A stretch of 36,634 bases of DNA from Acidobacteriota bacterium. Lineage in GTDB: Bacteria; Acidobacteriota; Thermoanaerobaculia; Thermoanaerobaculales; Sulfomarinibacteraceae. Positions 6,305 through 31,997 of this stretch are shown here, one piece after another. Below the pieces are notes generated by a model, which was given only the letters and a program-made list of their open reading frames with translations, had not been told where the DNA came from and did not search any database. Numbering within the stretch: the stretch's first letter is position 1; each line of letters begins with the position of its first letter. The translations under genes were made by a program, and so were the position numbers. Location of the stretch: the NCBI GenBank assembly GCA_015493585.1, contig WGCW01000133.1:1-36634 (forward strand). Reading direction: 5' to 3'.

Positions 6305-8020
6305 TCACAAGCGCCGGGCAATCGCCCGGGTCAGCATGCGAAGCCGGTCACGCCACGGCAGGCGCAGGAAGTTCGTCTTGAGAACCCCCCTCGTGAAGTA
6401 GGTCTTCATCGAGCCGTCGATGGCGACTTCGACCATAGCCGGGTTCCCCGAACGAGTGGCCTCGAGCGCAGCTTCAATGACCCCGTCGAGCTCGGCGTCA
6501 TGCAGAATCCGGAAGTACCGGCAACCCGTCGTCCGCGCCAAATCCTCGACTGAATAGTCGGGCAGCACGGTGCACGTCGACCGGTTGAGCGGAACCTTTT
6601 GAAACTGGGCGATCTGGCCAAGCTTGCCGTCGCGCAAAACACAGATCATCGGGGCAATTCCGTAGGACGACGCACCGATCAGCTCAAGGGCGGTCATCAG
6701 CAGGGCACCGTCTCCAGCGAGGGCAATGACATCGCGCTCGCGGTTTCCCCACTTGGCACCGATGGCGCCAGGCACGGCATAACCCATGCACGAGAAGTCG
6801 ACAGGACCGATGAAGCAGCGGGGACGGCTGAGCCGCAGATGCTCCATCGCGAGGAAGGTGCCGTTCCCCGAATCGGTCGTGTAGACCGTGTCCGCACCGG
6901 CATGCCGCTGCAACGCTTCGAAGAACGCGAACGGCGTCACACGATCGCGACTCGGGGACTTCCGCCATCCATCACGTACCGCCGCATGACCCGATCTGAT
7001 CGCACGTGTGAGGCTCTCCGAGCCGGTACGTTTCCGGAGAAGTGGGAGGAGGGCGCTGGCGAATGCGCGGGCATCGCTGGGAATTCCCACCGCGACGGGG
7101 AAGTTCTGGCCGATGACAGCGGGGTCGATGTCGACATGGATGAGGTTTTCAGGCGGCACCAAACCGTAACTCGCCGTGGCGACCTCGCCGAAACGGCATC
7201 CGACCGCAAGCAGGACGTCGCAGACATCCATGGCCTTCCGGACGAAGGCGGGTGCGGAAGCGCCAAACCCGTTCCACAGCCAGAGCGGATGATCTTCGGG
7301 AAAAACGCCCTTGCCCTGAATGGTCGTCGTCACAGGCGCCCCAAGCCGCTCGGCGATGGCGATGAGCTCCTCCCGGGCCGCAACAGCTCCCGCACCGAGG
7401 TAGAGCGCTGGCTTCCGGGCGGCGTTGAGGAGATCTGCGGCCCGTCGAAGGAGGTCGGGATCCGGCATCGCTGGCGCATTGGGGGTTGGAGCGAAGCGGA
7501 TCTCCTCGATCTCCTGACTGAGCAGGAGAAAGTTCGCCGGTATCTCGACGGCGACCGGGCCTGGGGTGCCACGCGTGGCCAGCTCGAATGCGCGCCGGAT
7601 CAGCGGATAGATCTCATCCGGCGTACTGGCGTGGAAGGCCCCTTTGGTGACCGGCGTGAGCACCGCAAGCTGGTCGATCGCATGGAGCTGATACGCCTTC
7701 CCCGTGTCGGTGCGGATCCCCGCAGCAATAATCACCATCGGCACGTTGTCGAGGTACGCCTCGGCGATCCCCGACAGCGCGTGCGTCACCCCGGCTCCGG
7801 GGACCAGGTTGAGCACGCCAGGCCGGCCCGTCGTTCTCGCCAAACCATCGGCGATGAAAGCTGCTGCCTGCTCGCTCGTCACCAAGACCGGTGTGATCAT
7901 CGCGCTCCGTTCGAGCTCGTCGTAGAGCTCGATATTGTGCGTTCCTGGAATGCCAAAGGTGTACCGTACCCCCTCGGCTTCGAGCGCCTGAACAATCAGC
8001 CGTGCGCCGGATGTCCTCAT
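6305..8020 (-). CDS. Thiamine-diphosphate-dependent enzyme (acetolactate synthase-like)
   Basis: A 571-residue, three-domain ThDP enzyme of the acetolactate synthase/pyruvate oxidase/decarboxylase superfamily. The N-terminal PYR domain has GIPGTHN and catalytic E50 (TSEQAAAFIADG). The middle domain is about 190-320. The PP domain has GDG at 436-438; the residue aligned with the usual second Asn of the metal motif is Asp (LRDGKLG, about 463-466), so the canonical NN is RD. The C-terminal tail after residue 535 is basic (KTYFTRG, RLPWRDRLRML). The ATG at 8020 overlaps the GMC gene stop (ATGA), which is why a longer upstream in-frame extension is rejected. Context with a GMC oxidoreductase argues against a housekeeping branched-chain amino acid role, as no small subunit is nearby. 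The substrate is unknown. Confidence 0.82.
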   Translation of the reverse strand: MRTSGARLIVQALEAEGVRYTFGIPGTHNIELYDELERSAMITPVLVTSEQAAAFIADGLARTTGRPGVLNLVPGAGVTHALSGIAEAYLDNVPMVIIAAGIRTDTGKAYQLHAIDQLAVLTPVTKGAFHASTPDEIYPLIRRAFELATRGTPGPVAVEIPANFLLLSQEIEEIRFAPTPNAPAMPDPDLLRRAADLLNAARKPALYLGAGAVAAREELIAIAERLGAPVTTTIQGKGVFPEDHPLWLWNGFGASAPAFVRKAMDVCDVLLAVGCRFGEVATASYGLVPPENLIHVDIDPAVIGQNFPVAVGIPSDARAFASALLPLLRKRTGSESLTRAIRSGHAAVRDGWRKSPSRDRVTPFAFFEALQRHAGADTVYTTDSGNGTFLAMEHLRLSRPRCFIGPVDFSCMGYAVPGAIGAKWGNRERDVIALAGDGALLMTALELIGASSYGIAPMICVLRDGKLGQIAQFQKVPLNRSTCTVLPDYSVEDLARTTGCRYFRILHDAELDGVIEAALEATRSGNPAMVEVAIDGSMKTYFTRGVLKTNFLRLPWRDRLRMLTRAIARRL

Positions 8021-9528
8021 GATCCCAACTCCTTGAACCGTTCGCGGACCCGTTCGGCGACACGGTCGGCAAGCGCCATGACGGTCACGTAGGGATTGAC
8101 CTCCGAACACCGCGGGAAGAGCGATGAATCGGCGATGAAGAGCCACGGAAAACCGTGCACCTGGCCCCACGCATCCGTCACCGATGTTTTCTCATCGGCT
8201 CCCATCCGGCAGCCTCCCATCAGATGCGCACTCGAAATCGAGATCCCTCCTGGACGGACGTTGGCCCGTGGCACGAGCGCCTCCAGGCGATCCTGGTCCT
8301 CCCGTTTGACGAAGAAGGTTTCGGCGGCGGGCACATGAACCCGGCTCGCTCCGGCCGCGAAGAAGATCCGTGCGGCCTCAATCATCGCGCGGTGCAAGCT
8401 GTCGAGCACGGTGTGCGCCAGCCGGTACCGGACGACCGGCTCTCCGTGGTGGCCGATCTCGACACGGTTCGTCTCAAGAGGTTCATCGAGCGCCAGGACG
8501 AGAATCTGCTGCTGGAACTGGAGATGCCGCATCATGGCCTCGTGTTCCTCGCCGAATCCGTTGAGGTTTTTGGCCGTCGTGAACGGGTAGTACATGCAGG
8601 TTTCAAGCAGGAACCGCTGATCATCGCGGAACTGGTCAGAGTAGTAGCTCTTCGGAAAGCCAAAGAAGTTCGTCAGCGGATGATCGTGCTGTGCTGCGAG
8701 GATCAGCGCCGGATGGAGCGTGATCCCACGGCCGAGGGCGGGAAGGTATTCTCCCAGTCCCGAACGGAAGAGCAGCGCCGGGCTATTGATCGCATTACCG
8801 GCTACAACGATGATCCGCGCCTTGACGATGTACTCACCGGGTTCCCACGCCGATGGCTCGCCGAACTTCCTCGATCTCACACGAACGGTGCACATCCGTT
8901 TGGCCACACTCGTCACCGTTGCATTCGTGACAACCTGGACGCCCTGCCGTTCGGCCAGTGGAAGCTGCACGCGGTTCGTCCCCTGCTTTGCACCGTTGGG
9001 GCAGCCGAGGTTGCAAACGCCAGCCCCGTGGCACCCTTTGACATTGATGGGGAACTGCTGCACACGGTACCCGAGCGCCCGGCATCCAGCGACAAAGAGC
9101 CGGTTGTTCTCGTTGATCAACTCGTCCTCGAGCAGGTGCACGTTGTTCTCGGCGAGCGCCTTCTCCGAGCGGCGCCGTACATCATCCCATGCCAATCCGG
9201 GCACGTCCCATTTCTTGAGGACATGCTCGGGAACGACCATCGACGTCCCGGTGTACACCGTCGTCGAGCCCCCGTAGGCACGCGCCCAGGCCAGCGTCAT
9301 GCTCCGGTCATGGGTCAGCATGCCGCCGGAATCGAAGTAGAGACGGCTGGCCATCTCAATCTCCCGGCCGGTCAGCTCTTCATCCTTGAGCTTCGGCCCC
9401 TGCTCGAAGACGACGATCCGTACGCCATCGGCACACAACGGTGCCAGCTCCTTCGCAACCGTTCCGCCTCCGGCGCCGGAACCGACGATGACGATATCCG
9501 CTTGGACCTCACGCATGCAGCGCCTCAT
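8017..9528 (-). CDS. GMC-family FAD-dependent oxidoreductase
   Basis: A 503-residue flavoprotein that oxidises an alcohol. The FAD-binding start is DIVIVGSGAGGGTVAKEL (about 11-28). The conserved C-terminal active site has HLMGGCRMG (H435) and SEVNPYVTVMALADRVA (N478). A cysteine-containing insert, CNLGCPNGAKQG, is typical of the bacterial GMC branch that works with a small partner subunit. Starts at 9528 (MRRCMREV, AGGA upstream) and 9516 (MREVQAD, GAGG upstream) are both plausible; either way it overlaps the upstream subunit gene. It sits between that subunit and the ThDP enzyme, overlapping both, so the three products probably act together. The electron acceptor and alcohol are not deducible. 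Confidence 0.88.
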   Translation of the reverse strand: MRRCMREVQADIVIVGSGAGGGTVAKELAPLCADGVRIVVFEQGPKLKDEELTGREIEMASRLYFDSGGMLTHDRSMTLAWARAYGGSTTVYTGTSMVVPEHVLKKWDVPGLAWDDVRRRSEKALAENNVHLLEDELINENNRLFVAGCRALGYRVQQFPINVKGCHGAGVCNLGCPNGAKQGTNRVQLPLAERQGVQVVTNATVTSVAKRMCTVRVRSRKFGEPSAWEPGEYIVKARIIVVAGNAINSPALLFRSGLGEYLPALGRGITLHPALILAAQHDHPLTNFFGFPKSYYSDQFRDDQRFLLETCMYYPFTTAKNLNGFGEEHEAMMRHLQFQQQILVLALDEPLETNRVEIGHHGEPVVRYRLAHTVLDSLHRAMIEAARIFFAAGASRVHVPAAETFFVKREDQDRLEALVPRANVRPGGISISSAHLMGGCRMGADEKTSVTDAWGQVHGFPWLFIADSSLFPRCSEVNPYVTVMALADRVAERVRERFKELGS

Positions 9529-16661: not shown

Positions 16662-18275
16662 TCAGCGCATGCGCTTGAGCGGGCGGACGCTCCGGGAGGC
16701 ACGGTGTGCCACCGCTGCCAGGTCGACCGAGCCCGTCAACGTCCTTCCCCACCCGTCGGTCAGCACGAGCCGGAGCCCGGATGCATGGGCGGCCCCGGAT
16801 CCGGTCCAGATGCCGAGGAGGCGGTGATCCCCTGACGTCGGGCCGTTGCCCAACACTGAGAGGATGCGTCCACCGCCGTCGACAGCTTCGAGCTCCCACG
16901 ATCCAGGGGCTGGCCCATCGGGGAGGCTGTAGAGGGCGGCGATACCGTACAGGGGGAAGGCCATCCCCATAGCCGGAGGCAGCAACGGCGCGTTTTCGAT
17001 CCACGTTCCGGCGATCAGCCCCTGACCCCCGAGCGCCGGTGTCGTTGCAGTATCGGTCTCGTCGAGCAGGAGCCGGGCGTGGTCGAACGCCCCAAATCTG
17101 GTGAAGGCACCGGTGGCATCATCTGGGTACGGCTTGACGTGGCAGGCGTGGAGCTCGATCGTCGCCTCATCGGAGGCTTGGATATCGCACGTGAACGTGC
17201 ATTGCCGTGCGGCCGATGTCGACGTGTCTGTCGCACCGAAGTAGCCGCCGCTTCCATCGACGGTGGTCCTCTCGAGCACGGAATGAGCACCGCCAAATGT
17301 GATCATCTCGCCGATCACAGCATCCTTGACGGTCACGGTGGCGCCATTTTCCGGATAGAGGTTCCAGGTATCGATCGATGCATTCTCGAGATGGATCGTC
17401 CGGTCATCGAGCGGGAGAACGGCGTCGTCGTACATCTGACCATTCCTGAGATCCGTGATCGTTTCTGGATGCGGCAGGTGCAGGCCGACGACGACCCAGT
17501 TGTCCTGCGGGATATCGCGAAGCGTCAGGTTCGCACCCGGTTTGACCAGCAACGGCCACAGGAGCACCTGACACCGTTTGAGGTGGCAGGTGTCTGGAAT
17601 CCCGGTCGAACCGGCCGGCGGAAAGTCCCACGCCTCAACGAACCCGGTGGCCGGCGGCGTGTATACCGCTGTGCTTCCCTCGGGAAACTCCGGCCAGACC
17701 CAGAGGTTGCCGCCCCCGGGATCGCGGGGGATATCCTCAAGCGCGATCTGCCCGGAATCCTGGAGGATCACCTCAAAGTGGCCATCGAGCCGCGCGGCGT
17801 CGATCCGGGAGCTTCCGGTCGCGATCAGTTGCACACTCCCGAAGCCGGTGTCCGTGATGGTGATCGAGCCGTTGCCGCCAGACCAAAGCGCATGCTGGAC
17901 GCCGTTGGGCACCCGGTAGTCGCAATCCGAAATGGTGGCGGAACCATCGTCCACGACCGCGAGCGCGTACTGCCCGTGATACGTGCTCATGAATTGGATG
18001 ACCGAATGTGTCAGGATCACGGTCCCGTGCCCAAGGACCATGAGGCTCCCGGTGAAACGAACGCCGGGATCGGGGACGTTTGCGATCGTGAGAAGCCCCC
18101 CGTCTGCAACGACGACATCTCCAAGATCCTCCGGCTGACTGATCGTGACCGGCGTCGTGATGATCCAAGGCTCGTCCGCATGGACCGTTCCCGGCACGGC
18201 TGCTCCGAGCCCTCCGGGGAGCGCTATCGCGAGCACGAAGCGGACGAGACGGGGGCGCATGCCGTTACGGAACAT
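16662..18275 (-). CDS. Secreted right-handed beta-helix-like protein
   Basis: A 537-residue exported protein. Residues 1-33 are a signal peptide (RPRLVRFVLAIALPGGLGAA core, cleavage near VHADE). The body has repeated short strands separated by turns (GTVILTHSVIQF, GSATISDCDY, GSITITDTGFG, ATVTVKDAVIGEM, ATIELHACHV), the pattern of parallel beta-helix proteins. A separate C-terminal domain (about 440-537) ends in a basic tail. No catalytic signature is recognised. Its start overlaps the end of the GGR-like gene by 11 bases, with GAGGT eight bases ahead of the ATG. As the only secreted protein in the glycosylation-like run it may be a substrate or surface-layer component, which is inference. 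Confidence 0.75.
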   Translation of the reverse strand: MFRNGMRPRLVRFVLAIALPGGLGAAVPGTVHADEPWIITTPVTISQPEDLGDVVVADGGLLTIANVPDPGVRFTGSLMVLGHGTVILTHSVIQFMSTYHGQYALAVVDDGSATISDCDYRVPNGVQHALWSGGNGSITITDTGFGSVQLIATGSSRIDAARLDGHFEVILQDSGQIALEDIPRDPGGGNLWVWPEFPEGSTAVYTPPATGFVEAWDFPPAGSTGIPDTCHLKRCQVLLWPLLVKPGANLTLRDIPQDNWVVVGLHLPHPETITDLRNGQMYDDAVLPLDDRTIHLENASIDTWNLYPENGATVTVKDAVIGEMITFGGAHSVLERTTVDGSGGYFGATDTSTSAARQCTFTCDIQASDEATIELHACHVKPYPDDATGAFTRFGAFDHARLLLDETDTATTPALGGQGLIAGTWIENAPLLPPAMGMAFPLYGIAALYSLPDGPAPGSWELEAVDGGGRILSVLGNGPTSGDHRLLGIWTGSGAAHASGLRLVLTDGWGRTLTGSVDLAAVAHRASRSVRPLKRMR

Positions 18276-19443
18276 CGAACGTTACCTCGGACCCGCTCAC
18301 GTGCGACGGCATGAACACCGGTGCGAGCGCCGCCGCGCGGGCCAGCAGCCCCGGGTATCCCATCTCACCCCGGATGACCTGCACGAACCAGCCGCACACC
18401 TGCCGGTTCCGGAACAGATATTTCATCGCACTTCGTGGATGATGAAACAAGAGATCGGAGAGTCGGCGTGCGAGCACAAACGGCGCGTGGATCTTCCACC
18501 ATACCCGAAGGGTGTAGCCGTCGAGCGGCCGTCCACTCCGGAGCATCGCGTCGATCGCAGCCGCGGCAAAGTGGCCCGTCATCAACGCGTACGAGATCCC
18601 CTCGCCTGTCACCGGATCCACGGTGTCCGCTGCATCACCGGCTAAGACGGCACGGTTGGTATTGAGGCGTGCGCGGCTTCCTCCGACCGGGATTCTGTAC
18701 CCGCGGGAGCGCACGGGCGCAGTGTCCTCCAGTTGCGGCCAGCGCGAGATGAAACGCTCAAGCCGTCGTATCGCTCTTCGGCCCGACCCGGAGCCTCCCT
18801 CGACGTATCCGCCGATCGAGCAGGTCAGCCGCTTGGGGAAGGCCCATCCGTAGCCGCCAGGAAACGCTTCCAGATCGAAGAGCGCAGTTGCTGGTCCTTC
18901 TTCGCGATGAGGCAGCCGTGCTTCCATCTCGTAGGTGGCGGCGACCTCGCGCTCCTCCCCCGGGAAGAGAGCCTTCCGGACGCGGCTTTCGACGCCATCG
19001 GCCCCGACCAGCGTCCTCCCATGCAGCTCCCCACACGAGGTGTCGAGGATCATTTCATGCGCCGTCTCGATCACGCCACGAACGGTGCAGCCCTCCATCA
19101 CATCGACCCGTTGCAGCGTTCGGACGAGCTCCAGATGCGCCGCGTCAAAGGTCTCCCGATGCACCATCCATCCGACGGGACGGGACGACCGGACACGGGT
19201 CACGAGCCCCGGTCCGTACGAAATCACCGCCTCGGACATCTCCCGCTCGAAGAGATCGCGTAGCTCCGGTGGGAGGTACGGCTCCGCCTTGGCTGTGATC
19301 CCCCCCGCACACGGTTTCCACCGGGGAAACGACGCCCGGTCGACGAGCAGCACCTGCCATCCCTTGCGCCCGAGCTCCCACGCGGCGTGACACCCGGCCG
19401 GACCGGCGCCCACGACGATGACGTCCCACCGCGGTCCTGCCAT
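18265..19443 (-). CDS. Geranylgeranyl reductase-family flavoprotein
   Basis: A 392-residue FAD-dependent reductase. The dinucleotide-binding loop is VVGAGPAGCHAAWEL (about 10-24). FPRWKPCAGG (39-48) is the family's substrate/flavin motif and GDAADTVDPVTGEGISYAL is the second FAD motif. Members hydrogenate isoprenoid double bonds in archaeal lipids, dolichyl phosphate, menaquinone or chlorophyll side chains. Here the neighbours are a DPM1-like GT2 and two polyprenyl-linked glycosyltransferase-like membrane proteins, so saturation of a polyprenyl-phosphate carrier is a reasonable inference. The ATG at 19443 shares one base with the preceding stop (TGATG). Other halogenase- or epoxidase-like flavoproteins of this fold cannot be excluded. 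Confidence 0.8.
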   Translation of the reverse strand: MAGPRWDVIVVGAGPAGCHAAWELGRKGWQVLLVDRASFPRWKPCAGGITAKAEPYLPPELRDLFEREMSEAVISYGPGLVTRVRSSRPVGWMVHRETFDAAHLELVRTLQRVDVMEGCTVRGVIETAHEMILDTSCGELHGRTLVGADGVESRVRKALFPGEEREVAATYEMEARLPHREEGPATALFDLEAFPGGYGWAFPKRLTCSIGGYVEGGSGSGRRAIRRLERFISRWPQLEDTAPVRSRGYRIPVGGSRARLNTNRAVLAGDAADTVDPVTGEGISYALMTGHFAAAAIDAMLRSGRPLDGYTLRVWWKIHAPFVLARRLSDLLFHHPRSAMKYLFRNRQVCGWFVQVIRGEMGYPGLLARAAALAPVFMPSHVSGSEVTFDVP

Positions 19444-20411
19444 CAACCGGCTCCGCCCGCCGTCTGCGCCGGTGCACGCATGATCACGCCCGTCATGCAT
19501 GCGATTCCCCCGGCAGCCTTGGCCAGCTCCGGAATCGCAGCCTGGATCACGCGGACACCATTGTCCTCGAGCCACCGCCGCGTGCGCGGATTTCCAGCCG
19601 GCATCAGCACCCGGCGCGGCGAAAGAGGCACGAAATTCAATGCCTGCCCAGCCGAGAGCTCGGGGCTCTCCGGTGCAGTCAAAATGTCAAAACCAGCCTC
19701 GTTGAGGATGGCACGCGTACGTGTTGGAACGGCTCCCGGCCGGGCGATGGCGAGGTCCCGGTCCACGAGACGCAGCGTCCCCATCAGGTGCATCGCCCCT
19801 GGCACGATCTCAACCTCCACCGCGTCGATGCCCAGCTCCTGCAGGCATCCGGCGGCCTGCCGCGCACCGTCGCGATTCGTCCGGAACCCAACCCCAATCA
19901 TCACCCGGTCCGGCCCAAGCCACATCGCGTCCGCACCCTCGAACGTTCCCCGGCCCCGGATCGTCCGCAGGATGGGGATCCCAAGCGCCGCAAGCCGGTA
20001 CGCCACGAGCCGCTCCTCGCCTGCCCGGACGGTCGAAGCCGGCCGTCCGATGACGGCGCCTTCCGCCGTCATAAAGAACAGGTCCGCTGCAAACACCAGA
20101 TTTGGCGGTGGCGTCCCGTCCGGCTCAATCAGGTCGACGCGAATGCCAAGCTCCCGGTACGCGGCTTCAAGCGCCTCATGCTCGCGCCGCGCTTCCTCCC
20201 ATTCGACCGGTTCCAGCATCTGCACGCTCCCGGGATCAGAAGAAGCGCCAAGCTCGGCTCCGGGACGGTGCATCAGCACCCGTTTGAGCGGCATCCATTC
20301 CGTATCGGCGCCACAGCTCGACCACAGAGTCCCGATCTCTTCCCGCAGTGATGCCGTGCGCGGTGACCATCCCGGTCCACCGAGTGCGGCGGGCAGATGC
20401 GGGTCTCTCAT
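19443..20411 (-). CDS. Amidinotransferase/dimethylarginine dimethylaminohydrolase-fold enzyme
   Basis: A 322-residue guanidino-modifying enzyme of the arginine deiminase/DDAH fold. Catalytic C305 sits in AGGIACMTG. FEGADAMWLG and HLMGTLRLVDRDLAI supply the acidic and His parts of the active site, and VLMHRPGAE is the usual first strand. The family hydrolyses or transfers the amidino group of arginine or methylarginine; similar enzymes also make ornithine. It overlaps the GT2 gene by four bases (ATGA) and the GGR gene by one base. Its place inside a glycosylation-like run is unexpected and unexplained. Confidence 0.85.
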   Translation of the reverse strand: MRDPHLPAALGGPGWSPRTASLREEIGTLWSSCGADTEWMPLKRVLMHRPGAELGASSDPGSVQMLEPVEWEEARREHEALEAAYRELGIRVDLIEPDGTPPPNLVFAADLFFMTAEGAVIGRPASTVRAGEERLVAYRLAALGIPILRTIRGRGTFEGADAMWLGPDRVMIGVGFRTNRDGARQAAGCLQELGIDAVEVEIVPGAMHLMGTLRLVDRDLAIARPGAVPTRTRAILNEAGFDILTAPESPELSAGQALNFVPLSPRRVLMPAGNPRTRRWLEDNGVRVIQAAIPELAKAAGGIACMTGVIMRAPAQTAGGAG

Positions 20412-21406
20412 GTTCCGTCCGGCTTGGGCCCGTTGGGATGTGGCCGGGAGCTTCCCCTGCCGAGGACACCAACCGTGTGATCGGTGCTCTCGCCGACCAG
20501 GTAGAGCGGCCTATGCTTAACCTCGTCGAAGACGCGGCCGAGGTACTCCCCAAGGATGCCAATCATGATGAGCTGGACGCCGCCGAGGAAGAGGATCGAC
20601 GCCATCAGCGACGTGTACCCAGGCCAGTTGATCCCGGCCAGCTTGAGCCCGATGACAACCAGGATGTAAACGAAGGCGAGCGCCGAGACGGCAAACCCAA
20701 GCCACGTCGCCAGCCGGAGCGGCACGAACGAGAACGAGGTGATCCCGTCGATGGCGAAGCGAACCATCTTTTTCAGCGGATACTTGGTCTCGCCGGCGTG
20801 ACGGGCTTGACGGTGATACCGGACCCCGGTCTGTTCAAAACCGACCCAACTGACCAGACCCCGGATGAAGCGGTTGCGCTCATCGAGCGCCCGGAACGCC
20901 TCAAGCGCCCGCGGCCCCATCAGCCGGAAATCACCGGTGTCCACCGGGATATCGACGTTCGTGATCGCTCGAAGCGTCCGGTAAAACGCCGCAGCCGTCG
21001 CCTTCTTGAACCAGCTCTCCCCTTCCCTCGCCTCGCGCTGGGCGTAGACAACCTCAAACCCCTCCCGCCACTTTGCGATCAGCTCAGGAATGACCTCGGG
21101 CGGATCCTGAAGATCGGCATCGATGATGACGGCGGCCTCGCCCCGCGCGGCGTCGATCCCGGCGGTCACCGCAGCCTGATGCCCGAAATTGCGCGCGAAC
21201 CGGATGCCACGGATCCGCGCGTCCCCCCTGGCCAAACCGGAAATGGCATCCCATGTCCCATCCTGCGAGCCATCATCGACGAAGACGATCTCAAAGCTGC
21301 CGGCCACCCCGTCGAGCGCCGCGGTCACACGTTCGTACATCGGTACGACGTTGGCCTCCTCGTTGTACGCGGGGATGACCACGCTGATCTCGGGACGCTC
21401 AGCCAT
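20408..21406 (-). CDS. GT2 glycosyltransferase, DPM1/GtrB-like (polyprenyl-phosphate glycosyltransferase)
   Basis: A 332-residue inverting glycosyltransferase that transfers a hexose from a nucleotide sugar to polyprenyl or dolichyl phosphate on the cytoplasmic face. The GT-A domain has SVVIPAYNEEANV (8-20), VDDGSQDGT (43-51) and the metal site DADLQDPPE (96-104), the signature of the DPM1 group. Two C-terminal transmembrane helices (about 225-250 and 263-290) match the GtrB type. The ATG at 21406 has GGAGGT five bases ahead and overlaps the end of the Agl23-like gene by eight bases. The product, a lipid-linked sugar, is the donor expected for the GT-C-like membrane proteins encoded just upstream. 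Confidence 0.88.
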   Translation of the reverse strand: MAERPEISVVIPAYNEEANVVPMYERVTAALDGVAGSFEIVFVDDGSQDGTWDAISGLARGDARIRGIRFARNFGHQAAVTAGIDAARGEAAVIIDADLQDPPEVIPELIAKWREGFEVVYAQREAREGESWFKKATAAAFYRTLRAITNVDIPVDTGDFRLMGPRALEAFRALDERNRFIRGLVSWVGFEQTGVRYHRQARHAGETKYPLKKMVRFAIDGITSFSFVPLRLATWLGFAVSALAFVYILVVIGLKLAGINWPGYTSLMASILFLGGVQLIMIGILGEYLGRVFDEVKHRPLYLVGESTDHTVGVLGRGSSRPHPNGPKPDGT

Positions 21407-23792
21407 GGGAGACCTCCAGAACCCATACTTTACCGGAGAGATCGCCGATCGCCAGCTCGTGCGCGCCCTCATCCCACGCGACACCGGTCGGATCGATGCC
21501 AAAACGGCCAAGATCAATGCGGGAGATGGCCGTTCCGCGAATCCGCCACAACGCCTTGCCTGGAGTGTCACTGACGACCCAGTCGTTGCGTGCGAGCACG
21601 GCAATCTGCGGCCGCGAATAGAAGTCACTCCAGGCCGTGGACAACGGGATCATCCGGAGCACCTTCCCGCTGACAGAAAAAACCTGGAGGCGGCGATTTC
21701 CTGTATCGCAGACCACGAACGAGCGGTAGTCGAGCCAGGCGATGCCGACCGGTTCGATGAGCTCGCCCGGGCCCGTCCCCGGCTTGCCGATGACCTTCAG
21801 ATGGCGCAGATCCGGGCTGTAGAGGATGACCCGCTTGTCGCCAGTATCGGTGACGGCAACGGAGCCGTCCGGCCCAACGGCGATCCCACGCGGACCGTAC
21901 CACCCTCCATCCGGCGCTGGAAGGACCCATACCTGGCCTGTTGCGGTATCCGCACGGATGACACGCTGACTCCACGTGTCCGCAATGAGGAGCGTCCCAG
22001 GACCGAGCCACGCCACCGACTCAGGTTGGCTGAGCCCGGCGACATCGACACGCTTCGCGCTGCCCTCCGGATCGAGGATCATCACCTGGGAAAGCGCCGC
22101 ATCTGCAACCGCCACGCGGCCCTCCCGCATCGAGAGGCCACGGGGCTCCCCAAGCCACCCTGTCCCCAGCATCTTCAACGAGACGGCATCGAACGTCTCT
22201 GCGAGCTCCCGCGGGACGGGAACATTGGTGATGACGGGCGCCGTCTTTTTCAGGCGCGTCAGGACAATGACGTCCGTCGAGCCGATGCTCCCCCAGGGGA
22301 TTCGCGTCAGCTCGTACCGTGCGATCTCCCAGAGCGATGGCCTCCGCTCATACATCAGCCACCACGCCCTGAGCGGGATCCTGCGCCGGCTGTATCCCGG
22401 CCCGAGCAGGCTGCGCGCTTCCGCTTCCGAGGGCGGATCACAGATGACGATTGGCGGCCGCTGGCCGGGATGCGGCAGGCTCCACTCGACGCCGATCTTT
22501 CGCCAGTACCACATCAGCGGCCACACCGCCTCCCCCGACACCGCGGCCACGACACCATTGTCCTGCCGTGCAAGCCGCAGCCCTTCCTTCGCGACATCCC
22601 GCAATTCCGGGCAGGTCTGGACGAAAATCATCGATTCGACGCGTCGTTGCGCCGGTGTGATCTCGTCGAGCACGAACGACGCGACGAGCGCGATGACGAG
22701 CGTTGCGGCAAGCCCTGTGGCCGTCAGGCTCCGGCTCCACCATCGCCCTCTCCGGCCGAAGGTTCTCGCGAGCTGAGCACCAGCCAGTGGAATGAACGCC
22801 CACACCTGATGCACCTCGAGCCACGGCGTCTTCTCGCCGAGATAGCAGTACAACCCGATTGAGAGCACGCCAAAGCTGAAGAGAAAGACCTCGACCGGCT
22901 TGAGCCGCCTCCGCCGCCGGATCACCCAGATCAACGCCAGCACGATCGGGAGGAACTCGTACTGCGCCAGGCGCGGCAGGTGATACCACCACGGTCCACC
23001 GACGCGGGCGATTTGACTCTGATGCCACCAGTAGAGAATGGCCTTAACCGGAAAGCACCAGTCTGCAAGGTGTGTGAATCCAACGGTATAGATCGGAATC
23101 GTGACGACGACAAAGACCGAGACGGCCGTTGCGATCCCCTGCCACTGCGACTCGATCCAGGAAAGCGCGCGGCCAAAGCTTCGCCGGACCCCGAAAGACA
23201 GAACCGTCATGCCACCGGCGAGCACGGCGAGGAAAGCCGTGACGTACGCATTTTCCTTCGTCGCAAACGCGAGCCCGGCCCAGAGGCCGAGCCAAGGCCA
23301 CGCACGCTCCGACCCGTGCACGGCCGCATACAGGGCGAGGAAAGCCGCTGACGCCGTCACGGCCTCGAGCAGATCCATCCTGAGAAACCGGCCGTAGTAG
23401 AGAAAGATCGGAGAGATCGTGAAGAGCAGGCCGGTCCACCACGCCGCCTTCTCGCCGAACGGTCTCCTCAACCTCCACGCCACAGCCAGCATCAAGATGC
23501 CCGCTACCGCAATTGGCAGCCGCGCCGTGAAGTCTGAATCGCCCAACACGGCGAAGGTTCCCGCTGTCAGCATGTACAGTAGCGGGCCGTGGTAGGTCGG
23601 ATCGTACCGGTAACTCCCCTCGTGGAGGAAATCCCACGAGAGCCGCGCATGAATCGATTCGTCGTGATGAAATGACCGTCCGCCAAGCCCCCAGAGATGC
23701 AGCACGACCGTCAGCAGCACGAGGGCGATCCACGCCCACCGCCGCCTGCGCTGCACGCGTCCGGCACCACTCACAGCGGCTCCCCCGTTCAT
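21399..23792 (-). CDS. Agl23/TIGR03663-like membrane glycosyltransferase with C-terminal NHL propeller
   Basis: A 797-residue protein. Residues 1-390 form a polytopic membrane domain related to GT-C/PMT-type transferases. It has the DE dipeptide in FHHDESIHAR (D44-E45), HGP at 68-70 and the conserved arginines of the TIGR03663 family (flippase activity-associated protein Agl23). Residues 390-545 are a soluble domain. Residues 547-797 hold six NHL-type repeats (PRGLSM, PESVAW, PRGIAV, PVGIAW, PQIAVL, PTGVAW, each followed by a D-T/S-G turn), enough for a six-bladed propeller. The ATG overlaps the DUF2298 stop (ATGA). Family members almost always neighbour a DUF2298 protein, as here. The biochemical role of the family is unproven. 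Confidence 0.82.
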   Translation of the reverse strand: MNGGAAVSGAGRVQRRRRWAWIALVLLTVVLHLWGLGGRSFHHDESIHARLSWDFLHEGSYRYDPTYHGPLLYMLTAGTFAVLGDSDFTARLPIAVAGILMLAVAWRLRRPFGEKAAWWTGLLFTISPIFLYYGRFLRMDLLEAVTASAAFLALYAAVHGSERAWPWLGLWAGLAFATKENAYVTAFLAVLAGGMTVLSFGVRRSFGRALSWIESQWQGIATAVSVFVVVTIPIYTVGFTHLADWCFPVKAILYWWHQSQIARVGGPWWYHLPRLAQYEFLPIVLALIWVIRRRRRLKPVEVFLFSFGVLSIGLYCYLGEKTPWLEVHQVWAFIPLAGAQLARTFGRRGRWWSRSLTATGLAATLVIALVASFVLDEITPAQRRVESMIFVQTCPELRDVAKEGLRLARQDNGVVAAVSGEAVWPLMWYWRKIGVEWSLPHPGQRPPIVICDPPSEAEARSLLGPGYSRRRIPLRAWWLMYERRPSLWEIARYELTRIPWGSIGSTDVIVLTRLKKTAPVITNVPVPRELAETFDAVSLKMLGTGWLGEPRGLSMREGRVAVADAALSQVMILDPEGSAKRVDVAGLSQPESVAWLGPGTLLIADTWSQRVIRADTATGQVWVLPAPDGGWYGPRGIAVGPDGSVAVTDTGDKRVILYSPDLRHLKVIGKPGTGPGELIEPVGIAWLDYRSFVVCDTGNRRLQVFSVSGKVLRMIPLSTAWSDFYSRPQIAVLARNDWVVSDTPGKALWRIRGTAISRIDLGRFGIDPTGVAWDEGAHELAIGDLSGKVWVLEVSHG

Positions 23793-25846
23793 TTGGTGCT
23801 TCCACCGGCATCCGCGTGCCGTTCCACCTCGACCAGCATTGTCCCCTCCTCATCCAGAATGATCCGTCCTGCCCGCCGGATGGCACCCTCGTCAAGCTGC
23901 GGGTAGCGCCGCCGCTCCATGCCGCCAACCGCAATGATATCGAACGGGACTTCCCTCGCAAGCTCCCGGATCGTCGCCGCCGAGCCACAGGTGTAGACAC
24001 GCCGGATCAGTTTCCGCCGCCGGTCGAGCTCGGGGCCGATCGATCCGCCACGCCAGACCAGCTCGTGGTTCGCCCACCCGAGCACTGCAGGCACTCCGGA
24101 GGCCGACGATAGCCGTGCAAAGTCAGTGTACGCACCTCCCACCGCCTCGACGAGCGCCGTCCCTTGAGGGAGCCCGCGCAAAGTCCGGACTGCCGCACGA
24201 TCCCCAGCCGTCATCCAGCCGAGCCCGGAGACTCCAAGCTGCTCCGCGCGCAACGGCGCCGTCATCACGGTTGCCAGGTGCGGCAACGCGGGAAGCACGA
24301 GCACAGCCGTCAGGACCGCTCTTCCGGCCCGTTTCCGCGCCGCCCGGCGAAACAGCACCGGCGCCGCGATGGCGAGGAAGATCCACGCCTGGAAATACGC
24401 CTTGAACACCGTGTTCATGCGGTGGAGCTCGGCACCATAGGGATCGCGGACAAAGATGATTTCTGGCACCAGGAAGAGAAAGACGCCAAGAGCTGCGAGC
24501 CACACCGCGCCGCGATCGGGTTCCTCCCCCGGCGCCGTTCCCCACCAGATCAACATCGCCAGCAAGCCGGCCAGCAGCACGAGAACGGGACGTCCGCTCA
24601 ACGCGGCCATGACCACGAGCCACGCCGCGGTCAGCCAGATCCACACCCGGCGCAGGCTGGCATCGCTCGTTGGCCTTTGGAGGACGAAACCCAATGCGCC
24701 GCAAACCACAACGGTCAGGAGCGATCCCGCATACATCAGCAAATCGGGCAGCGGCGTCCATGCGTGCACGAAGCCGATCCCCTCGAACGGCGGATGGAAC
24801 TCCAACAGGAAGGGAAGGACGGCGAGCGCGCCCCCAATCCCCGCAGCTCCCGCAGCGGCCCATCGTGTGAGCCCCTCTCCGGCCGGCCAACGCCACCGGC
24901 CATCTCCGGCGATCAACATCAGCGCTATCGCAGCGAACGTCGGTGGCATCGCCCACGGGTTCGCCGCCCACGTCGCGCCGAAGGCAACGGCGATCCCTGC
25001 CAGAATCGCCGGGCGCACCCCCTTCGCCGCAGCGTGGGCCGCCAGCGCCACGCCCAACAGTGCCAACGGCAGCGACAGCAGATGCGGATGCAGATCCCCG
25101 AGCCAAAACGTGAAGAGGGGAAACTCGGTGATCGTGTGGGGCACCTGGCGCGAAGAGGCCCAGAGATCGAGCGAGCTGAGGTTGCGGCCCGCGAGAAGCT
25201 GCCTCAGGCCGTCCGGCGTTCCTGCCAGCATCGCCAGAAAAACCGCTCCCATCCCTGCGGTCTTCGATCGTGCCAGACGAGACGCAAGCACCCAGATGCC
25301 AACAGCCGTCACCCCTCCCAGCAGGGCGACCACGAGGTTGTAGCCGGTTCCCAGTCCGATACCACCGAGTGTCAACGGGATGGTCCAGATCAGGGCGCCC
25401 CAGTAGTAGTACGGCAACGAGAAACCCGAGAGCCACATGTCAGGAGGCGGGAACGATCTCGTGCGAAGCAGCGTCGCCAAGATCCCGAGATCCATCGGTT
25501 TCTCCGTCCCACGGATGGCGGGATGGTCGAGCCGCAGGAGGAGCACCGCCACCCAGCCAACGGTAAACACAGCCTCCGCCACCAGCAGGTCCCGCCACGC
25601 TGGACGCCGCCGCCACATCGTCCCAAGACCGGCGAGAGCACCCGCGATCAGCACCGCCCCACCGATCCAACGCCACGCCCCAACTCCCAGCGATCCCGCC
25701 CACCACGAGGGCCACGCCACCAGTACCAGCCCTGCAATACGTCCGAGCCCCCAGGCCTCTCCATCGGGAAGCCCGAGGTACACGAGCACCCCATACCCCG
25801 CAAAGCCTGCGACGAGCACAACCAGGAAGAACGAGATGATCGTCAT
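23789..25846 (-). CDS. DUF2298 (TIGR03662/Chlor_Arch_YYY) polytopic membrane protein
   Basis: A 685-residue membrane protein with roughly a dozen or more helices. Family motifs are EKPMDL (115-120), FPPPDMWLSG then YYYWG (132-150) and GDLHPHLLSLP (250-260). DUF2298 proteins occur in archaea, Chloroflexi and scattered bacteria and resemble GT-C glycosyltransferases; activity has not been shown. A soluble C-terminal domain of about 180 residues follows the last helices. The ATG at 25846 has GAGG seven bases ahead; GTG 25849 is the previous codon. It lies nine bases after the LpdD-like gene and overlaps the Agl23-like gene. The strong partnership of DUF2298 and Agl23-like genes supports both calls. 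Confidence 0.85.
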   Translation of the reverse strand: MTIISFFLVVLVAGFAGYGVLVYLGLPDGEAWGLGRIAGLVLVAWPSWWAGSLGVGAWRWIGGAVLIAGALAGLGTMWRRRPAWRDLLVAEAVFTVGWVAVLLLRLDHPAIRGTEKPMDLGILATLLRTRSFPPPDMWLSGFSLPYYYWGALIWTIPLTLGGIGLGTGYNLVVALLGGVTAVGIWVLASRLARSKTAGMGAVFLAMLAGTPDGLRQLLAGRNLSSLDLWASSRQVPHTITEFPLFTFWLGDLHPHLLSLPLALLGVALAAHAAAKGVRPAILAGIAVAFGATWAANPWAMPPTFAAIALMLIAGDGRWRWPAGEGLTRWAAAGAAGIGGALAVLPFLLEFHPPFEGIGFVHAWTPLPDLLMYAGSLLTVVVCGALGFVLQRPTSDASLRRVWIWLTAAWLVVMAALSGRPVLVLLAGLLAMLIWWGTAPGEEPDRGAVWLAALGVFLFLVPEIIFVRDPYGAELHRMNTVFKAYFQAWIFLAIAAPVLFRRAARKRAGRAVLTAVLVLPALPHLATVMTAPLRAEQLGVSGLGWMTAGDRAAVRTLRGLPQGTALVEAVGGAYTDFARLSSASGVPAVLGWANHELVWRGGSIGPELDRRRKLIRRVYTCGSAATIRELAREVPFDIIAVGGMERRRYPQLDEGAIRRAGRIILDEEGTMLVEVERHADAGGSTK

Positions 25847-25855
25847 CACCCCGCC

Positions 25856-26245
25856 TCACCGCCTCCCGGCCGCCCGGACGAGCGCATCCTCCAGACGCCG
25901 CGCCAGCTCCAGGTAGCTCTCGATGCCGGCGGTGTCGAGCCCGTCCTCGTGGATCCCGGCCGTCACCACGACGGCATGGCCAAGCTCGATGGCAAGACGT
26001 TCCGCGATTCGTCGCGCAACCGGTTCGTCCTTGTGCCCGGGAAGGTTCAGAATCGAAGATGTTGCCGAACGTGCCGAAGGGTCGGAGCCAGATGGGCGTG
26101 GCGCGGCCAGCACGACCGAGCCTACGTGTGGCTGCGTACCGCCACTGACGGTAACGACCAGATCATCCCCCACCCACCGCCACCATGCGGAGATCGTTCG
26201 TCCGTCTCCGGAGATGCTGACCTCGCCGCTTTCAGCTCCCGCCAT
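25856..26245 (-). CDS. LpdD-like (prenylated-flavin chaperone-like) domain protein
   Basis: A 129-residue single-domain protein. The pattern DLVVTVSGGTQPHVGSVVLA, then SILNLPGHKDEPVARRIAERL, then VVVTAGIHEDGLD resembles the LpdD-like family associated with UbiD decarboxylases and present, without UbiD, in many archaea and Firmicutes. Active-site-like residues H, GHK and GIH are present but the molecular function is not established. The ATG at 26245 (MAGAES) has GGAGGA seven bases ahead; the ATG at 26251 is too close to it. It is the first gene of the long minus-strand run and no ubiD is in the window. Family assignment rests on recalled motifs only. Confidence 0.55.
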   Translation of the reverse strand: MAGAESGEVSISGDGRTISAWWRWVGDDLVVTVSGGTQPHVGSVVLAAPRPSGSDPSARSATSSILNLPGHKDEPVARRIAERLAIELGHAVVVTAGIHEDGLDTAGIESYLELARRLEDALVRAAGRR

Positions 26246-28534: not shown

Positions 28535-31500
28535 TCACCGCCCGGCAACGTTCACTGAATCACCGGAAATGTTGTCGACCTGCGTTGCGTAGAGGATCAG
28601 GTCAGCCGGGTTCGAAACAGCTTCGATCCAGCCCTGACCGTCTCCCTCGAGGACACTGGAGCCGAAGAGGGCTTCCAGCGAACGCTGGATGAGGCTCGCG
28701 GCCGGGATCGTCACTGGCGTCTCGCCAAGGATGACGCCATCGATTCCGTGAAGGCGGAGCGTCACCGTACGCGAGGTTGCGCTCAGGTTGACGAGACCAG
28801 CGTTGGTGCGGAACGCGCTCCCCCACCGTACCCAGGAAATCACACCCTGCCGAAGCTCCATCCGGTCCAGATCGATGCCCGGCACCGTTTGACCCATCGT
28901 TCCTGGCCCATCCGGTCTCGGCGTCACCACACGCGCCGTCGCCACGACCGGCACATCGGAGTCGATCCGAATGCTTCCGAGTCCCTCATCGATGCCCCAC
29001 AGCGTCGGCTGCACCTGATCGAACCGCCGCGTTTCCCCCGGTGCCAGTGTTCGGGCTACCGTCACTCCGCCGCTGCTATTGTCCTGATTGCCTGGCAAGT
29101 AGACGAGGTTGAGATGTGCGCTCTGAGGTCCTGGGTTGAACACCGTCAGCGCCGAATCCCACCATGTATCCTTCCGGCCGGGGCCCCGGCCGATCACCGG
29201 AATCAGAATATGTTGTGCGGCTGGAGAGCCGGAGATGTACGCCGGATCGCCGGAGTCGTTGTCGATCACGGAGACGTAGACAACGGCCGGCTGATCGATT
29301 GTCACTGCCACGCTGGCCGCCGTGACCCCGTCAAGAGCATGCTTTCCGACGAGGGCGGTCAGGTTCCACTGCGAATGCGCATGCGGCGCCAAACCGAGCA
29401 TCGGGCCGTTGATACGTCCTGTGGACGTCACCAATACCGGCTGGACATGAAGAACCGCACCGGATGCTGACGTGATCCCAAAATCGGTCCGGTATCCCGG
29501 CGCTCCCCGGATCCCGGTTAGGTAGATCGTCCCAGGCCGCTGAGGCATCTCAAGCGGGATCGACTGTCCATACGTTCCATCGGTACCTGAGGTAAACGTT
29601 CTGCTCGTCATCTCCGGCTTCTCCCCGGAGGTCATCTGAACGCCGATCGATCCGCTGAGCTGCCCGGATCCCATCAGGCCGACGACATCATCGAGCTCAA
29701 GCAGGTGCCCAGACGCGACCGTGAAAGATCTGGATGCCGTAGCCACGCCATCGCCGTTCCTCAGGATCAAGCGGCCTGATGATCCCGCAGACGACAGGTT
29801 GAGCAAGGCCATGTCGGTTTTCCAAAACGTACCGAGGTTGCCGGGGGTGTGCGCCGCAGCGGCGATCACGGAGGGAGCTGCACCAACCGTCACCTGATGA
29901 CCGGCCGTTGCCGAAGCGCCCCCCTTTGCCACGACGAGTGTGACCGTATAGGTCCCCTCTTGTGCGAAGGCATGAACCGCGCTCGCCCCGGTGGCATGGC
30001 CGCCGTCGCCGAAGCTCCACGAGAAGCTGTCGGGATCGCCCGTCGCGTCGGCCGTAAATGTCACCGGTTCCCCAGTCCACGGCTGCGCCGGCAAAACGGC
30101 GAAGTCCGCCGCCAGGCCTCCACCGGACGCCGGAACGGTCACCTCGGCCACTTCGCTCCATGCCGACGTGCCGCAGGAGCTCGACGCCCGTACACGGTAC
30201 TGGTAGACGGTGCCTGGAGTCACCGAGCGATCGCTGAAACTGGTCGTGCTCCCCGTCAGTGTTGCGCGTAGGACGAAGGTCCCAGCCCTTGCGGCCCGGT
30301 CGAGCTCGATGGACGTCTGTGCCGTGCTGCCGTTCGTCCAACCGATTTCGACGTCGTCCGAAGACACCGCCGTCGCGTGCAGGTTGGCGGGGGCAGGAGG
30401 CACCGATCCGGGCGTTGTCGCGGTTGCCGTATTCGAGGCGCTGGATTCACCGGTATCGTTGAACGCACGTACCTGATACTGGGCGGTCGTGCACGGTCCG
30501 ATCCCCGTATCGGTGAAGCTCTGCACATTTGCCGCCGTCGACGTGATGAGGCTGAACCCTCCCCCGAGCGAGCGGTACACGTGGAAGCCGCTCTCATCGT
30601 CAGAGTTGTCCGTCCACGTCAGCGTAATTTCCTGCTCCCCCACCGCCTGTGCGGCCAATGCTGCCGGCGGCGCCGGCGGGGAGCTTTGGCTTTGCTCAGG
30701 ATACAGATACGCCGCGCAGGTGCTGTCGGTCGAGGCCAAGGCAGCGCCCCTCGGGTAGTGGCAACACTGGGAATACATCGTTGCATTGGAATCATGATGA
30801 TGCCCGAAGCCCAATCCGTGCCCGAGCTCATGCGTCATAACCTCGGCGAAGTTAATCGCACCCACACACTGTGCGCCGTCGTTGACGACGACGAAGAGCT
30901 TTTGAGCCGGATGCCACGGCGATCCATCGAACTGCTCGGTTGCCGTCGAGAAGACGGGGCCCCCGTAGGCGAGCGTCCCAGAACAATTGTTGAGCGCCTC
31001 GATGTCGCCGCACGGGTCGTTGAAAACCACGGCGTTCGCCTGATAATCGTCACCGGACGTGCAACTGATCTGCTGCGCCGTCGTTCCACCGTAGCTTAAG
31101 AGAATGTGTGAGCTCGAGTCGTTGGTCCACGCCTGCGCTGCACCCGAGACCGCACCGGTTCCGCCGTCGTCGAGCCCCTCCTGGCCAGGCGTCGTCGCCA
31201 TGATCGTCGCAGACACGCCATCGGCAAAGCTGAACCAGCGAATGCCGTTTCCGTCGCCATCATATGTCATGAACTCACAAACGGATGGAGCCTCCTGAAC
31301 GTGGGCACTGGGTACGCTGACATCCGGTGTCAGAACTGAGGCGCCGTTCCAGCGGGCGCGGCCGCGGATGACATCGCGCAGGTGGGAGATCAGAGCTTGC
31401 TCCCGGTACGTACCCGGAATTTCGACGTCGAACCGGTGCACGATCCCAATCTTTTCGCGTTCGGCAACAGGCCTGACGATCGTGGTGCCATTGACCTCGA

Positions 31501-31888
31501 CCTGCTGGAAAACGCCCCAGGCCATCCCACGCGTGCGCCACGAGCCGTCCGGCATCCGGTTGAGAAAGAGGAGATAGGTCGTACCGGGAGAAAACCGGGG
31601 GGATCCCTCGATCTCAGCAGCGATGCCTCCGAATGCACCCCCCGGCTCGGAAACCTCAAACGTGGACGGCAGCTTCGCTCCTCCGACGACATCGAGCCGT
31701 TCGAAGGTCGTCACGGTATGCGGGATGTATGGCCCAGCTACCCCTGACGAGGAGAGCGCCTTCGCCAAGACCACGCTGTCGCTCATCCGTGCGAGCTCGC
31801 CAAGGTTTTGAGGGGGGACGATCTGGGCTCCAAAGGAGTACAGGCCACCCAGGACCACAATCAGAATGACACAACTCAGCCGTTTCAT
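28535..31888 (-). CDS. Secreted multidomain metzincin metalloprotease
   Basis: A 1117-residue exported protein. Signal peptide at 1-21 (MKRLSCVILIVVLGG). A propeptide-like region precedes the catalytic domain, whose zinc site is HELGHGLGFGH (H353, E354, H357, H363) with the Met-turn ATMYS (M371), diagnostic for metzincins such as matrixins. Cysteines at 266, 293 and 302 and others around the site suggest disulfides. Two fibronectin type III domains follow (about 405-500 and 510-600), then a PKD domain (about 605-690, FSWSFGDGG). The C-terminal 420 residues are repeated beta modules (GTFWKTDMALLNLSS, KDTWWDSALTVFNPG, GSAFRTNAGLVNLSA) found on many exported proteins of soil bacteria. The ATG at 31888 has GGAG upstream. 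Confidence 0.9.
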   Translation of the reverse strand: MKRLSCVILIVVLGGLYSFGAQIVPPQNLGELARMSDSVVLAKALSSSGVAGPYIPHTVTTFERLDVVGGAKLPSTFEVSEPGGAFGGIAAEIEGSPRFSPGTTYLLFLNRMPDGSWRTRGMAWGVFQQVEVNGTTIVRPVAEREKIGIVHRFDVEIPGTYREQALISHLRDVIRGRARWNGASVLTPDVSVPSAHVQEAPSVCEFMTYDGDGNGIRWFSFADGVSATIMATTPGQEGLDDGGTGAVSGAAQAWTNDSSSHILLSYGGTTAQQISCTSGDDYQANAVVFNDPCGDIEALNNCSGTLAYGGPVFSTATEQFDGSPWHPAQKLFVVVNDGAQCVGAINFAEVMTHELGHGLGFGHHHDSNATMYSQCCHYPRGAALASTDSTCAAYLYPEQSQSSPPAPPAALAAQAVGEQEITLTWTDNSDDESGFHVYRSLGGGFSLITSTAANVQSFTDTGIGPCTTAQYQVRAFNDTGESSASNTATATTPGSVPPAPANLHATAVSSDDVEIGWTNGSTAQTSIELDRAARAGTFVLRATLTGSTTSFSDRSVTPGTVYQYRVRASSSCGTSAWSEVAEVTVPASGGGLAADFAVLPAQPWTGEPVTFTADATGDPDSFSWSFGDGGHATGASAVHAFAQEGTYTVTLVVAKGGASATAGHQVTVGAAPSVIAAAAHTPGNLGTFWKTDMALLNLSSAGSSGRLILRNGDGVATASRSFTVASGHLLELDDVVGLMGSGQLSGSIGVQMTSGEKPEMTSRTFTSGTDGTYGQSIPLEMPQRPGTIYLTGIRGAPGYRTDFGITSASGAVLHVQPVLVTSTGRINGPMLGLAPHAHSQWNLTALVGKHALDGVTAASVAVTIDQPAVVYVSVIDNDSGDPAYISGSPAAQHILIPVIGRGPGRKDTWWDSALTVFNPGPQSAHLNLVYLPGNQDNSSGGVTVARTLAPGETRRFDQVQPTLWGIDEGLGSIRIDSDVPVVATARVVTPRPDGPGTMGQTVPGIDLDRMELRQGVISWVRWGSAFRTNAGLVNLSATSRTVTLRLHGIDGVILGETPVTIPAASLIQRSLEALFGSSVLEGDGQGWIEAVSNPADLILYATQVDNISGDSVNVAGR

Positions 31889-31913
31889 GATGCTCCGCCT
31901 CTCGCTCATCCTA

Positions 31914-31929
31914 GGCTCTATTTTGAGCC
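31914..31929 (-). promoter_or_regulatory. Stem-loop in the leader of the metalloprotease gene
   Basis: GGCTC and GAGCC pair around a six-base loop, about 26 bases before the start codon. It could lie in the 5' leader, or end read-through from mrp. No T-run is adjacent. Confidence 0.3.
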
Positions 31930-31997
31930 GGAGTATCATTCACGTCTGTGACCCGGATTACTGGCGCTGCCGTCTCTCCTTGCGCTGCTCGCGACTG

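Follow-up and report, generated by a model that had tools for sequence, protein, structure and literature searches.

A conserved DUF2298, Agl23-like and GtrB-like gene set in Acidobacteriota as a probable polyprenyl-phosphate-sugar glycosylation module with lineage-restricted additions

The window analysed here is a stretch of 36,634 nucleotides, contig C133 of a 3.1-Mb metagenome-assembled genome of an Acidobacteriota bacterium (Thermoanaerobaculia). Open reading frames read from its DNA revealed seven minus-strand genes at 16662-26245, encoding, from 5' to 3', an LpdD-like protein, a DUF2298 membrane protein, an Agl23-like membrane protein, a family 2 glycosyltransferase (GT2), a DDAH-like enzyme, a geranylgeranyl-reductase family enzyme (GGR) and a secreted protein (Table 1). 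Five of the six junctions are overlaps of 1-11 bases: 4 bases between the DUF2298 and Agl23-like genes (23789-23792), 8 between the Agl23-like and GT2 genes (stop at 21399, ATG at 21406), 4 between the GT2 and DDAH-like genes (20408-20411), a single base between the DDAH-like and GGR genes (19443), and 11 between the GGR and secreted-protein genes (stop at 18265, ATG at 18275). The first junction is a gap, the LpdD-like gene stopping at 25856 and the DUF2298 gene starting at a GTG (25849; gap of 6) or an ATG (25846; gap of 9). All seven overlapping or closely spaced genes, and their order, are as described in a first-pass annotation of this DNA, which had interpreted them together as one polyprenyl-linked glycosylation module with archaeal features. 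The downstream neighbour of the run is an RNase D gene.

Table 1. Genes of the seven-gene run, with positions in the window, and examples of a longer DUF2298 paralogue at other loci
Feature	Position	Strand	Basis
LpdD-like / bacterial PAC-like protein (PF21758), ~130 amino acids (aa)	25856..26245	-	Pfam PF21758 E 1e-29; LpdD structure match E 4e-7
DUF2298 (TIGR03662, Chlor_Arch_YYY) predicted GT-C-fold membrane protein, 686 aa	23789..25849	-	TIGR03662 367 bits; AF2 model
Agl23-like (TIGR03663) PMT_2/GT-C membrane protein with C-terminal NHL propeller, 797 aa	21399..23792	-	TIGR03663 247 bits; PMT_2 57 bits
GtrB-like GT2 with C-terminal transmembrane region, predicted polyprenyl-phosphate sugar synthase, 332 aa	20408..21406	-	PF00535 1e-32; GtrB sll0501 5e-94
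Arginine deiminase/DDAH-superfamily enzyme, 322 aa	19443..20411	-	PF02274 4e-20
GGR-family flavin adenine dinucleotide (FAD) enzyme (TIGR02032), 392 aa	18265..19443	-	TIGR02032 195 bits, cut-off 159
Secreted protein, apparent Sec signal peptide, 537 aa, without family match	16662..18275	-	no Pfam, NCBIfam or PDB match
Longer DUF2298 paralogue (examples)	L079:8470-12417; L127:7446-13256; L084:4789-9891		

The match of the GT2 to the solved bacterial GtrB sll0501 covers residues 6-306, and hence nearly its full length. It was also matched to ArnC (8e-47) and, in the catalytic part only, to the archaeal dolichol-phosphate mannose synthase 5mlz (1e-20). The PgfS profile gave 289 bits, below its cut-off of 500, and the archaeal-type DPM1 profile DPhHxTase_Halo only 26 bits against 375. 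Judged by its sequence, the GT2 is a bacterial GtrB-like enzyme and not an archaeal one. The archaeal features claimed for the run were not borne out, since the GT2 most resembles bacterial GtrB and the GGR carries a GEG motif, not the archaeal GGG. Similar GT2 genes adjoin those of GT-C partners in systems with GtrB/ArnC-type undecaprenyl-phosphate sugar synthases (GtrABC, ArnC/ArnT, PgfS); here, in contrast, the partners are DUF2298 and TIGR03663 proteins rather than GtrC or ArnT. No small GtrA-type flippase was identified in the seven-gene run.

The DUF2298 protein exceeds the TIGR03662 cut-off of 300 bits and scores 293 bits against 27.8 with the Pfam profile. Its AF2 model (14 sequences) has a mean predicted local distance difference test score of 85 and a predicted template modelling score (pTM) of 0.89. 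A Foldseek search with this model returned six matches under 1e-3, which are DPY19 (8e-7), AftA and PglB entries. In VIA-align, the highest scores were obtained with STT3 (Z 16.5 over 466 residues, root-mean-square deviation (rmsd) 7.4) and DPY19 (Z 16.2), followed by AglB (Z 15.8), PMT4 (Z 14.7 over 341 residues, rmsd 4.3), ArnT (13.9) and PglB (13.3); ALG9/12 and AftA/AftD were also matched (residues ~76-680; overall Z ~12-16.5). The list of 50 entries opens with 48 GT-C-type proteins or complexes that contain such a protein, all with Z of at least 8.7; the next, unrelated entry drops to Z 5.4. A GT-C fold of the DUF2298 protein is well supported by these comparisons of the predicted structure, in line with the resemblance proposed in the first-pass annotation, and Pfam may already place DUF2298 among the GT-C families.

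The alignments to GT-C proteins begin at about residues 76-90, such that the helix at 85-107 corresponds to the first GT-C transmembrane helix (TM1), and the motif EKPMD lies in the loop that follows. The glutamate of this motif, E116, is invariant in 130 DUF2298 homologues (99 distant and 31 near), in which D252, H254 and K483 are likewise conserved at 100%, and E242, R477 and N479 at or near 100%. E116 thereby provides a conserved acidic residue in the predicted first extracytoplasmic loop, the membrane side being deduced only from the preceding RRRPAWR loop, and from its GT-C catalytic position it is a candidate catalytic acid or base. The fold and the acidic residue after TM1 are shared with DPY19, PMT and ArnT, GT-C transferases that use lipid-monophosphate sugars; in contrast to these, to which it is ~10% identical, the DUF2298 protein has three extra N-terminal helices and a C-terminal part of its own. 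Members of the family and class also encode a second DUF2298 paralogue, which is longer (1300-1900 aa), with an extra N-terminal region of ~620-740 aa and, in some members, a C-terminal NHL/ScyF-like propeller.

The Agl23-like protein scores well above the cut-offs of TIGR03663 (126 bits) and of the PMT_2 profile PF13231 (26 bits), and its HHDE motif (residues 42-45) is invariant in nine homologues. At its C-terminus (residues ~536-794) lies an NHL propeller of six blades, matched with Z 31.8 over 245 residues, a fusion absent from the first-pass description. In Haloarcula hispanica, Agl23 has been proposed to flip hexose-P-dolichol (PMC11182771). The window shares with the Agl22/Agl23 system of that archaeon, which handles lipid-linked hexose intermediates (PMC11182771), an Agl23 (TIGR03663) protein and a glycosyltransferase for lipid-linked sugars. 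It differs in its bacterial GtrB-like GT2, its DUF2298 partner, the propeller on Agl23 and the carrier, which is presumably undecaprenyl phosphate.

Scanning 84,980 named species genomes with a DUF2298 alignment revealed that the close relatives are Acidobacteriota records, mostly of Thermoanaerobaculia; a Chloroflexota origin of the window, to which the name of TIGR03662 might point, was rejected on this ground. The 20 genomes of the window's family all encode DUF2298. Of 247 phylum genomes sampled, 33 have a match of any strength and 14 one above the curated cut-off. The sole match in a plasmid collection was from Pseudobutyrivibrio. Synteny was counted, using profiles built from family members, at 105 distinct DUF2298 loci, namely 66 acidobacterial loci and 39 further ones, mostly of Chloroflexota. 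A GtrB-like GT2 gene accompanies DUF2298 at 35 of the 66 acidobacterial loci, and all three core genes are found together at 26. No GT2, GGR or DDAH gene scored above 100 at the 39 further loci, where weak Chloroflexota Agl23 and GT2 genes are undercounted because the profiles were trained on acidobacterial sequences. That DUF2298, the Agl23-like protein and the GT2 form a real, conserved unit is well supported, and to this extent their earlier description as a lipid-linked-sugar module stands.

The complete seven-gene order recurs in a genome of the same genus (G200; JAADFN010000181, L128), with proteins 68-86% identical, and in a second genus (G257; JAJDNH010000142, L129), with proteins 55-76% identical. 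A search around the G257 copy found none of the genes that flank the block in the window. Since the block recurs in both genomes while its flanks differ in G257, the arrangement is not due to chance. The last three genes are nevertheless rare. The GGR gene occurs at four of the 105 loci, in a single clade spanning three genera (the window's genus, with G000 and G200; G257; and G252) and always in this operon, while the DDAH-like and secreted-protein genes occur at three loci in two genera. In G252, the GGR gene directly follows GT2, with no DDAH-like gene and with an unrelated gene downstream. A tree of DUF2298 and GT2 places the GGR carriers and G258 in one clade (support 0.94). Parsimony suggests that the clade acquired the GGR behind GT2 on one occasion, that G258 later lost it, and that the DDAH-like and secreted-protein genes were present or gained in the branch of G257 and the window's own genus (branch support 0.54).

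Among the additions, the GGR exceeds the TIGR02032 cut-off and has the active-site cysteine (in KPCAGG) and the YGWAFP motif. Every GGR with demonstrated reduction of prenyl chains has the active-site cysteine and YxWxFP; GEG has been described for GGRs of photosynthetic organisms and GGG for the archaeal enzymes (PMC6309074). The archaeal profiles are not reached (DGGGPL_reductase 75 bits against 580, Halo 44 against 700), and the sequence makes a non-archaeal prenyl reductase plausible. With the family at large (TIGR02032; BchP/ChlP, archaeal DGGGP reductases) it shares the FAD domain and these active-site features, but it falls below every equivalog cut-off and forms a separate clade inside a glycosylation operon. 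Other GGRs of the phylum are ~30-36% identical to it and none adjoins core genes, and no other long match above ~35% identity was found elsewhere in the family genomes. No bacterial GGR beside polyprenyl-phosphate glycosyltransferases was found in the literature searched. A mutual dependence of GGR and Agl23 was considered and dropped: Agl23 is present not only in every GGR carrier but also in most members of the family.

The DDAH-like enzyme, when aligned to Pseudomonas aeruginosa DDAH, retains the triad E158-H208-C305, whereas D60 and E65 of the DDAH guanidine pocket are replaced by N104 and A109. It scores 86 bits against 340 for the DDAH equivalog. Orthologues at this place in the operon were found in G200 and G257 only. 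Close relatives (424-450 bits) do occur in other acidobacterial families (L239-L242; G030, G043, G068 and G281), with HD-GYP, papain-type protease and NAPRTase genes among their neighbours and neither a GGR nor a core gene in the stretch read. For the secreted protein, labelled a beta-helix in the first-pass annotation, neither a family nor a PDB match emerged. Its homologues in G271, G135 and G005 likewise lie outside any such operon. Its sequence motifs (three N-X-S/T sequons, no WxxW motif) were uninformative as to whether it is a glycan target. As the DDAH-like relatives, the other GGRs and the secreted homologues are found apart from the core, the seven-gene run is a conserved core with a lineage-specific extension, and the GGR, DDAH-like and secreted-protein genes are later additions outside the general module. 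Of the single seven-gene module first proposed, therefore, the core remains and the add-ons do not; GGR and DDAH genes are not absent from all related DUF2298 loci, but absence is the rule.

The LpdD-like gene heads the operon throughout the family and was found at 12 distinct DUF2298 loci, all within that family. Its metal ligands H35, H61 and D63 are conserved with those of the solved relative LpdD (aligned PH and HKD residues), the aspartate being a glutamate in most family homologues. Because the gene is also present in operons lacking a GGR, a role as flavin chaperone for the GGR is unlikely.

Two further features of the window lie outside the run. Just upstream, on the same strand (28535-31939), is a gene for a secreted-type protein of 1134 aa that combines M10 peptidase-like, fn3 and PKD domains, and at 6305-9528 a thiamine pyrophosphate-dependent enzyme gene and a GMC oxidoreductase gene overlap each other.

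We favour, with a probability of roughly 0.65, the interpretation that the core is a bacterial polyprenyl-monophosphate-sugar glycosylation module, to which one Thermoanaerobaculia clade added a GGR, and two of its genera a DDAH/arginine deiminase-fold enzyme and a secreted protein. For its chemistry, in which the sugar, the acceptor and any part played by the GGR or the DDAH-like enzyme are putative, we infer that the GT2 would transfer one sugar from a nucleotide sugar to polyprenyl phosphate (most likely undecaprenyl phosphate) at the cytoplasmic face. The lipid-linked sugar would be flipped, possibly by the Agl23-like protein, by analogy with haloarchaeal Agl23. One or both GT-C proteins, using the acid in HHDE and E116 of DUF2298, would then pass the sugar on to an acceptor outside the cytoplasm, and the NHL propeller may help to bind this acceptor or the cell surface. 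The GGR gained behind GT2 is a putative prenyl reductase for which the carrier is a possible but not a necessary substrate, and the DDAH-like enzyme of the two genera would be guanidine-modifying. Some observations count against this interpretation. The Agl23-like gene lies on a different contig from DUF2298-GT2 in several genera, and the set is thus not obligatorily together; the Agl23 model has a pTM of 0.64, its membrane part being of low confidence and its fold-search matches filled by the propeller; and a GT-C fold is by itself no proof of transferase activity, the published haloarchaeal Agl23 assay having measured flipping (PMC11182771). Indeed, the purified H. hispanica protein was able to flip lipid-linked oligosaccharide in vitro, and Agl23 suppresses a yeast rft1 deletion (PMC11182771), and NCBIfam names TIGR03663 'flippase activity-associated'. 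That the Agl23-like protein, DUF2298 or both are lipid-sugar flippases or scaffolds on a GT-C fold rather than transferases is nonetheless rather unlikely in our judgement, given the invariant acids at the GT-C catalytic position in both proteins and the further invariant polar residues typical of enzymes.

The function of the add-ons can be read in several ways. Adjacency is what suggests that the GGR may saturate the carrier and that the secreted protein may be a target, which would make all seven genes one pathway. The genes overlap, all four GGRs found in the clade lie in this operon in three genera, with none elsewhere in those genomes at similar identity, the motifs of active prenyl reductases are retained, and deletion of a GGR in Haloferax volcanii led to the loss of saturated dolichol phosphate (PMC10821996). 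Such a pathway appears improbable, since the GGR is missing from 101 of the 105 loci and from 16 of 20 family genomes, G252 has the GGR without the other two genes at this place, and homologues of these two are found away from the module elsewhere. There is a nearly even chance that the GGR, though co-transcribed with the core, has a different isoprenoid as its substrate (a quinone side chain, a C20 chain or another prenyl chain), and that the DDAH-like enzyme is a stand-alone guanidino-compound hydrolase. The family's substrates include menaquinone, chlorophyll and geranylgeranyl diphosphate, among others (PMC6309074), and both the remaining GGRs of the phylum and the DDAH-like relatives in other families sit away from the core; on the other hand, the order GT2-(DDAH)-GGR is kept over three genera with 52-79% GGR identity. 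A mixed isoprenoid operon, linked through the LpdD-like protein to prenylated flavin (UbiD/UbiX) and quinone metabolism, would accord with the retained metal ligands, with the occurrence of UbiD in 18 of 20 family genomes and with the GGR as an isoprenoid enzyme. It is the least probable of these readings, as UbiD is encoded elsewhere in the window's genome, on contig C156, no UbiD or UbiX gene adjoins the LpdD-like gene, and family members without a GGR have that gene.

For the glycosylation core, the uncharacterised DUF2298 family, which extends from Chloroflexota and Acidobacteriota to haloarchaea and methanogens, gains a concrete, testable GT-C role with a named residue. Saturation of the carrier is a textbook difference between bacterial glycosylation and that of archaea and eukaryotes, and the operon GGR offers one clear bacterial test case. 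It is doubtful, yet conceivable, that undecaprenyl phosphate is hydrogenated by this in-operon enzyme, which would yield a dolichol-like or further saturated carrier for bacterial GT-C enzymes independently of Archaea. Should the GGR prove unrelated, the assignment of the core would still stand.

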